64,000 bases of DNA from the NCBI RefSeq assembly GCF_000746085.1, contig NZ_JQKO01000001.1, positions 558,001-622,000 of the forward strand. Direction: 5' to 3'. Made by a program: the position numbers and the translations under genes. Shown here one piece after another: positions 18,616 through 19,152 of this stretch. The notes beneath the pieces were generated by a model, which was given only the letters and a program-made list of their open reading frames with translations, was not told the origin of the DNA and did no database searches. This stretch comes from Methylocapsa aurea (lineage in GTDB: Bacteria; Pseudomonadota; Alphaproteobacteria; Rhizobiales; Beijerinckiaceae). Each line of letters starts with the position of its first letter. The first letter of the stretch is position 1.

Positions 18616-18925
18616 ACAGCGCAACTACCATAATTGCGCACTGCACACAAGGCTATGCTCTAGTTTGATCGGGGGGGAGCGAACATGGGCTTAAGCGGAT
18701 TCACGTTTGATCGCGGATTTGTCGCCCTTCTCCTTGCCGTCAATCTCCTCCGCGCCGGCAAGGAGAAGAGAAGCCTCAAACTCCGGCGACAGCGCGTCGG
18801 ATGGAACACAGAATATTTCGCACCTCCGCTCGGAGCCCTACCGTATGGACAGGCTTTCGAAGTCCCGTCAAAGCGGATTGCAAAAGCGTGGCCGCCCTCT
18901 ATAGTGAGGCGTCTTCAATCAAGCG

Positions 18926-18939
18926 AAAGGAGGTGATCC
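18926..18939 (+). promoter_or_regulatory. Perfect Shine-Dalgarno: full complement of the 16S 3' tail
   Basis: AAAGGAGGTGATCC is a 14-nt exact complement of the conserved bacterial 16S rRNA 3' end (GGATCACCTCCTTT). The AGGAGG core sits seven bases before a GTG at 18941. A match of this length is much longer than for any other gene start in this window and marks the small ORF as deliberately translated or as a ribosome-binding leader. Confidence 0.75.
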
Positions 18940-18940
18940 A

Positions 18941-19006
18941 GTGTCTCATTGTCTCACGTTGCGGGCCCTGACCTGGCGTCATGCTCTTGAGGCCTCCGCC
19001 TCCTGA
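18941..19006 (+). CDS. Very short ORF (21 codons) behind a perfect Shine-Dalgarno
   Basis: GTG start, peptide MSHCLTLRALTWRHALEASA plus Ser, then TGA. It is too short for routine gene calling. It is preceded by the 14-nt anti-SD complement and followed by a strong terminator at 19052, so the whole unit (about 160 bp) looks like a self-contained translated small RNA or leader peptide gene. I have an unverified impression that a similar unit occurs in other Rhizobiales genomes. A longer overlapping frame (18685-18936) ends inside the Shine-Dalgarno and is less convincing. Confidence 0.5.
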   Translation: MSHCLTLRALTWRHALEASAS

Positions 19007-19051
19007 GGTTTAAGTGAAAGTTCGGGATCGCGGACCGCGGTCTGGCAATGG

Positions 19052-19084
19052 AAGGGCTGCCCTCGCGGGCGGCCCTTCTTTTTG
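19052..19084 (+). terminator. Rho-independent terminator
   Basis: GAAGGGCTGCC, loop CTCGCG, GGCGGCCCTTC, followed by a run of five T. The stem is about ten base pairs with one mismatch. It closes the short ORF unit at 18926-19006. Confidence 0.8.
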
Positions 19085-19095
19085 GCGACTTTTTC

Positions 19096-19152
19096 CTTAG
19101 AGCCGGATGTCGTCCGAAAACCGGTTTCCACTTTTTGGCATCATGCTCTAGA
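19096..19152. repeat. Dispersed palindromic element (ATGATGCCGAAAAG type)
   Basis: Starts CTTAGAGCCGGATGTCGTCC and ends GGCATCATGCTCTAGA. It is nearly identical to the reverse complement of 10527-10580, differing at a few bases in the left arm. It sits between the terminator above and the 3' end of the convergent lysozyme gene. Confidence 0.85.

Follow-up and report, generated by a model that had tools for sequence, protein, structure and literature searches.

Our analysis assigns positions 18917–19076 on the forward strand of the window (the whole stretch of 64,000 nucleotides that was analyzed) to the RNA family RF01867, CC2171 sRNA. The match found with cmscan covers model positions 1–159 of 159 and scores 93.1 bits, above the gathering cut-off of 75. 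Sequence comparison reveals an unbroken 17-nt complement to the 3′ tail of 16S rRNA, a short open reading frame (ORF) whose frame is kept, and a co-varying helix between the 5′ and 3′ parts of the RNA. From these features we infer that the locus may be a stand-alone CC2171-family gene encoding a ribosome-loading RNA gated by the helix, in which translation, and not the peptide, matters; we regard this as a plausible reading that falls a little short of probable. An initial annotation of the same DNA had noticed the Shine-Dalgarno sequence and the ORF, and proposed either a conserved microprotein or an RNA that binds ribosomes. The Rfam match and the 5′–3′ helix are additions to that annotation, whose interpretation as a whole is partly supported.

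The gene is flanked by minus-strand genes for an acyltransferase and a GH25 hydrolase. Upstream, a sigma70-like promoter was found at 18878–18905 (+), with TTGCAA starting at 18878, a 16-nt spacer and TATAGT ending at 18905 (9 of 12 consensus matches; 1 found by the scan vs 0.2 expected). Among 136 MSH loci, the best promoter-like score is modestly higher than in shuffled sequences (7.25 vs 6.56) and the promoter-like sites cluster at −34 to −37 from the start codon. The 14-nt exact complement to the 16S 3′ end reported by the initial annotation, AAAGGAGGTGATCC at 18926–18939, is present as the sole exact copy within the window. The single base that separates it from the GTG at 18941, the 21-codon ORF (18941–19006, +; GTG 18941–18943, TGA 19004–19006) and its peptide were likewise as described. 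Within the ORF, GACCTGG (18970–18976, +) is conserved as a nucleotide motif and is read in other frames in some relatives. A strong Rho-independent terminator had also been proposed. The predicted fold has a 13-bp terminal stem that begins at 19050 and runs into U residues (terminator at 19050–19083, +), and this stem is paired in all counted cells of an alignment of 23 sequences. However, a simple terminator scan listed no terminator at the CC2171 locus; weak pairing of part of the U run may be the reason. Directly 3′ of the terminator, at 19106–19142, the stretch CCGGTTTCC...CATGCTCTA may be an interspersed repeat; it gives a very weak match to Rfam BASRCI408 (13.3 bits, cut-off 398).

A search of the assembly itself for 16S rRNA gave no match, and the 16S tail was taken from two genomes of the same genus, whose three gene copies end in GGCTGGATCACCTCCTTTCT. 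Against this tail, the unbroken complement is longer than initially described, 17 nt at 18925–18941 (+), and includes the first base of the GTG. For the 14-mer, the duplex is computed at −23.9 kcal/mol, compared to −8.7 kcal/mol for GGAGG alone. Conservation was analyzed in 106 of 107 loci fetched through the covariance model, corresponding to 98 distinct loci. Fourteen of the 17 positions are Watson-Crick complementary in 91–100% of these loci and the other three in 86%, 82%, and 76%, although invariance alone is weak evidence, these bases being favoured by the covariance model itself. The kind of change is more telling. Of the 59 cells that differ outside the start codon, 46 are transitions, 38 wobble-keeping and 8 pair-breaking; eight positions of each sort exist, the loci are related and the cells are not independent. 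At the start codon, the pairing G is replaced by an A in 22 of the 98 loci and by a T in 2.

The 13-mer AAGGAGGTGATCC occurs three times in the M. aurea genome. A start codon follows only the copy at the CC2171 locus, and the two others, read by eye, look like coding sequence. When followed by NRTG, this 13-mer was found once each in 64 of the 385 class genomes searched, giving 64 sites, while the backwards-pattern control gave 0 in every row listed. Its complementarity to the 16S tail makes the CC2171 RNA a candidate for binding the 30S subunit. The RNA that binds ribosomes, one of the two initial proposals, thus appears favoured, because the unit is conserved and the ribosome-binding signal is strongly kept. 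We also considered an antisense of the 16S gene; this reading was rejected because the assembly has no 16S match and the 13-mer copies are accounted for by the CC2171 locus and the two coding-like sites.

The first in-frame stop falls at codon 20–28 in 133 of 137 distinct MSH loci. In the other frames the same range holds the stop in 11 and 19 of the 137, and shuffles gave 18.4 ± 4.0, at most 29. These loci come mostly from a pattern scan that fixed the Shine-Dalgarno, the GTG and TCTCAYTG, among the matches listed, and we therefore claim no conservation of the Shine-Dalgarno or of MSHC from this set. For 39 other types, the stop lies at codon 14–39 in 35 and at codon 55–57 in four, these lengths being conditioned on 10–60 codons by the custom terminator finder and ORF filter, through which 172 of 187 distinct loci passed. 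Of 16 model-derived loci lacking the exact Shine-Dalgarno, 15 could be read, and all 15 ORFs have 19–27 codons. The 65 sites carrying the 13-mer and a start codon, which were not filtered (64 from the class, one from the genus), all open ORFs of 14–57 codons. An ORF with a conserved frame is one of the features asked of a dual-function sRNA, for which the CC2171 RNA is a candidate. One locus of the same genus (L010) lacks the usual stop, and its ORF of 31 codons ends at a TGA just before CAATGG.

The conserved microprotein of the initial annotation stands as regards the frame and length of the ORF, but not its amino-acid sequence. In 47 independent pairs (NG86), pN/pS of the ORF is 0.95 (0.81–1.10), compared to 0.97 and 0.93 in the shifted frames, and the three codon positions change by 0.165, 0.166, and 0.147. 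Out of 33 pairs tried, 30 had a homologous flanking gene. For these, pN/pS is 0.83 in the ORF vs 0.26 in the flanking genes and the change per codon position is 0.103, 0.088, and 0.095 vs 0.107, 0.076, and 0.266, with a similar pN (0.090 for the ORF and 0.088 for the flanking genes). Slow change at all three codon positions is the mark of RNA-level constraint, beneath which a weak constraint on the peptide may exist. Purifying selection at the amino-acid level was not found in these pairs. Consistently with the codon counts, about 39 nt with 77% identity are read in different frames in L152 and L157, and compensating indels bring the ORFs of L009 and L157 to the same stop. This clean case concerns the L009/L152 group versus L157 only; alignments with many gaps inflate the wider counts of pairs with shifted frames (2817 of 3028 gapped pairs; 144 of 1106), which were set aside. 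The initial annotation had made its reading depend in part on conservation of the peptide or the Shine-Dalgarno in relatives: the Shine-Dalgarno is kept across the 98 distinct loci, whereas the peptide lacks codon-level constraint.

No family in NCBIfam or Pfam matches the ORF peptide, and a literature search with four peptide strings gave no match. Read by eye, the peptides look polar. The best remaining hint of a peptide role is a TGG found in frame as a tryptophan in 116 of the 137 ORFs, mostly 9–11 residues from the end. Near the ORF end, L028 and L029 share GGAGCAGCCTTC, which gives EQPS in one locus and GAAF in the other, the nucleotide motif being kept across frames. A CCTCC counter-motif in the ORF was rejected, as it occurs in 31 of 137 loci vs 22.3 ± 4.4 in shuffled sequences, about 2 sd.

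Codons 2–8 of the ORF pair with a strand located before the terminator, and both sides co-vary over 40 types. The 5′ strand CATTGTC (codons 3–5; 18947–18953, + in the window) lies opposite GGCAATG (19044–19050, +) or GACAATG, and other types pair with other letters, such as CATGGTT/GACCATG, CATGAAT/ATTCATG, and ATGAGATT/AATCTCAT. As the best-ungapped-helix score separates weakly (5.89 vs 5.08 for a shuffled 5′ window, with 17 of 40 types more than 1 unit above), we used a duplex-energy swap test instead. With one representative for each of the 40 types, own duplexes average −11.5 kcal/mol compared to −7.63 ± 0.43 for permuted partners, the lowest of 20000 permutations being −9.7. In 7 of 40 types no other partner equals the own one, which ranks among the top three in 14. 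For comparison, a stretch located after the stop and used as control gave −8.56 vs −7.64 ± 0.42 when permuted, about 2 sd better. With 75 representatives, own duplexes give −12.0 vs −8.23 ± 0.33, and 8 are strictly best.

Across the 23 aligned sequences, 98.8% of the cells of the long-range helix are paired and two pairs show changes on both sides; when the partners are slid, whole-structure pairing falls from 92.8% to 23–60%. Further pair types were not above shuffles in this alignment (370 of 500), and support for the outer helix is weak (68.8% of cells paired). Folding of the 107 loci where both helix strands were found gives the helix a median probability of 0.95, above 0.5 in 77%. Across the family, these data support the helix of RF01867. 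In the window's own RNA the strands are complementary, but the helix lies 2.8 kcal/mol above the best fold, with a probability of 0.007, and the preferred alternative pairs the Shine-Dalgarno with CCUCC near the ORF end. Another locus of the same genus also shows a low helix probability (0.02). With the helix, the median probability of an unpaired start codon is 0.68, vs 0.33 after shuffling of the 3′ strand (on fewer loci). The helix may therefore keep the start free rather than block it.

Taken as a working model, a very strong Shine-Dalgarno would capture the 30S subunit even with the start region folded into the helix, the initiating or translating ribosome would open the helix, and the helix would re-form when loading fails. 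The helix overlaps the stretch held by an initiating ribosome; if a folded start has to be captured first, an extreme Shine-Dalgarno would be expected. The act of translating would be what counts (by occupying, opening or protecting the RNA), with the peptide as a by-product, and the early stop would let ribosomes leave before the 3′ end. The output could be a change in RNA stability, the freeing of the 3′ strand, or the retention of 30S subunits. Given the freer start codon in the folds, the closed helix could also assist loading instead of blocking it.

Other explanations account for part of these data. If a small mRNA encoded a conserved microprotein of about 24 residues (MSHC...TW..AS), this would explain why start, frame, length and stop are conserved, why the tryptophan recurs, and why pN of the ORF is not above that of the flanking genes. 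However, change at third codon positions does not exceed that at the other two, frame-shifted peptides lie over conserved nucleotides, many types share the ORF length but not the peptide, databases hold no matching family, and MSHC itself overlaps the 5′ strand of the helix. We consider a microprotein improbable. No better a chance is given to a trap for free 30S subunits, in which the RNA would bind the whole 16S tail and hold subunits, the ORF serving only for clearance. The 17-nt complement with its wobble-keeping changes and the computed duplex energy agree with such a trap, which nevertheless does not need a stop at codon 20–28. A non-coding sRNA with an incidental ORF agrees with the sRNA class in Rfam and with the equal change at the three codon positions. 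It is very improbable in our estimation, given the kept start codon, the compensated frame shift, and the narrow range of the in-frame stop in 133 of 137 loci where 18.4 are expected.

The RNA could also regulate by base pairing (an Hfq-type sRNA) or act as a sponge for anti-Shine-Dalgarno sRNAs, the ORF then having a second role; we hold this to be unlikely, though somewhat less so than a microprotein. The gene is free-standing with a U-tailed terminator, and a study in Caulobacter crescentus (PMC12559287) describes SisA-D, which carry an anti-Shine-Dalgarno motif, and the sponge CrfA. On the other hand, the complement spans the whole 16S tail and exceeds what a CCUCC motif needs, and the name CC2171 is absent from the main text of the C. 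crescentus RIL-seq paper, where another name could have been used. A short ORF, alternative pairings and a terminator in one RNA also recall a leader-peptide attenuator of a downstream gene. We reject this as scarcely credible because the neighbours are not conserved and their orientation is random. Of 172 loci, 134 had both neighbours called by a longest-ORF rule; in 64 of these the next gene shares the strand of the RNA, the four arrangements occur 42, 34, 30, and 28 times, and by this crude gene calling no neighbour family recurs in more than 10 of the 172 loci. A conserved co-oriented downstream gene was not found among them, and in the window the next gene (GH25) is convergent. Against the ribosome-loading RNA that we favour stand the low helix probability in the window's own RNA, the small share of types whose own partner is strictly best, the shift seen in the control stretch, and the lack of a match in 7 of 15 genomes of the genus. 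In addition, according to Schrader et al. (2014), two of the earlier Caulobacter non-coding RNAs are translated, while most intergenic ones are not.

Type I toxin mRNAs and RNAIII show long-distance 5′–3′ pairing around a small ORF with a strong Shine-Dalgarno, and their peptides are membrane-active and conserved. The CC2171 RNA shares this pairing, but its peptide, polar by eye, appears to be neither membrane-active nor conserved. The Shine-Dalgarno and start block and the terminator are the same as in RF01867, and the long-range helix, whose strands are complementary in the window's RNA, is already contained in the Rfam structure line. The family itself is therefore known, being catalogued as an sRNA in Caulobacter and named in the Rfam 15 paper and in a Mesorhizobium sRNA list. 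In a limited search of partial texts, we did not find the 17-nt 16S match, the conserved ORF with its frame-without-peptide pattern, the co-varying helix, or the wider types that score below the gathering cut-off. Pos19 of Rhodobacter sphaeroides is likewise a small RNA with a small ORF, which is translated while regulation is independent of translation (PMC5036791). It differs in its size (219 nt, with a 150-nt ORF), its RpoE promoter and its restriction to R. sphaeroides strains. In Staphylococcus aureus, pairing of the Shine-Dalgarno likewise extends toward the start codon, also at GUG. There the extension is predicted at about 30% of ordinary initiation sites (PMC13009471), in contrast to the one exact site per genome, where present, for CC2171.

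Presence of RF01867 in genome samples was counted at E ≤ 0.001. The M. aurea genome has one copy. Matches were found in 32 of 60 relatives, in 85 of 385 genomes of the class (14 above the cut-off), in 53 of 60 genomes of the family sampled around G413, and in 55 of 299 genomes of the phylum, all 55 from the same class or nearer. Within the genus, 8 of 15 genomes, M. aurea included, have a match, and a DNA search of the 7 others gave nothing better than E 0.036; the CC2171 RNA is therefore dispensable. Among the records listed (80 of at least 120 loci) are Bosea, Methylobacterium, Microvirga, Brevundimonas, Acetobacteraceae, Rhodospirillales, and one Ramlibacter MAG. The latter (L122) is labelled a betaproteobacterium, and its contig may be a contaminant because its peptide is similar to that of L032. 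One Shine-Dalgarno and start block (L328) lies on the Methylobacterium radiotolerans plasmid pNYY1_1, typed as mobilizable, near umuD and a Y-family polymerase gene, with no feature over it in the plasmid's incomplete gene table.

Many of the 65 sites with the 13-mer and a start codon are not of the MSHC type. They include MSSE/MSSD peptides ending near EQP, MSSVTQRGFGSLS, MSHGSAGRS, MSRSTLRTR, and others, as well as MSSDFVF... and a 14-codon ...KRCHLAGIAR type. Eighteen such loci, and 6 of 8 further ones, reached no Rfam gathering score. As many of them match RF01867 weakly, below the cut-off, they are relatives or look-alikes rather than proven separate families. It is conceivable, though we consider it doubtful, that alphaproteobacteria carry widespread and usually single-copy translated RNAs that are indifferent to their peptide, each holding the 16S tail over 15–17 nt and containing a short ORF whose sequence is free; loading would switch the 5′–3′ helix and the RNA would report or adjust the capacity for translation initiation. 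If our reading of the CC2171 locus is right, an RNA catalogued as non-coding would be a dedicated ribosome-loading device in many alphaproteobacteria, with the act of translation under selection. It would also offer a simple system for studying the role of an extreme Shine-Dalgarno in bacteria that use one for few genes, the figure being 24.6% of Caulobacter coding sequences in Schrader et al. (2014).

In L183, L201, L235, and L236, a full Shine-Dalgarno precedes ORFs of 55–57 codons that resemble small secreted proteins, with N-termini that look like signal peptides by eye; the L235 peptide has no match in NCBIfam or Pfam. L019, L217, L314, and L315 are of the 14-codon ...RCHLA... type and carry CTCGCTGG in the ORF and CCAGCGAG after it, which are complementary by eye.
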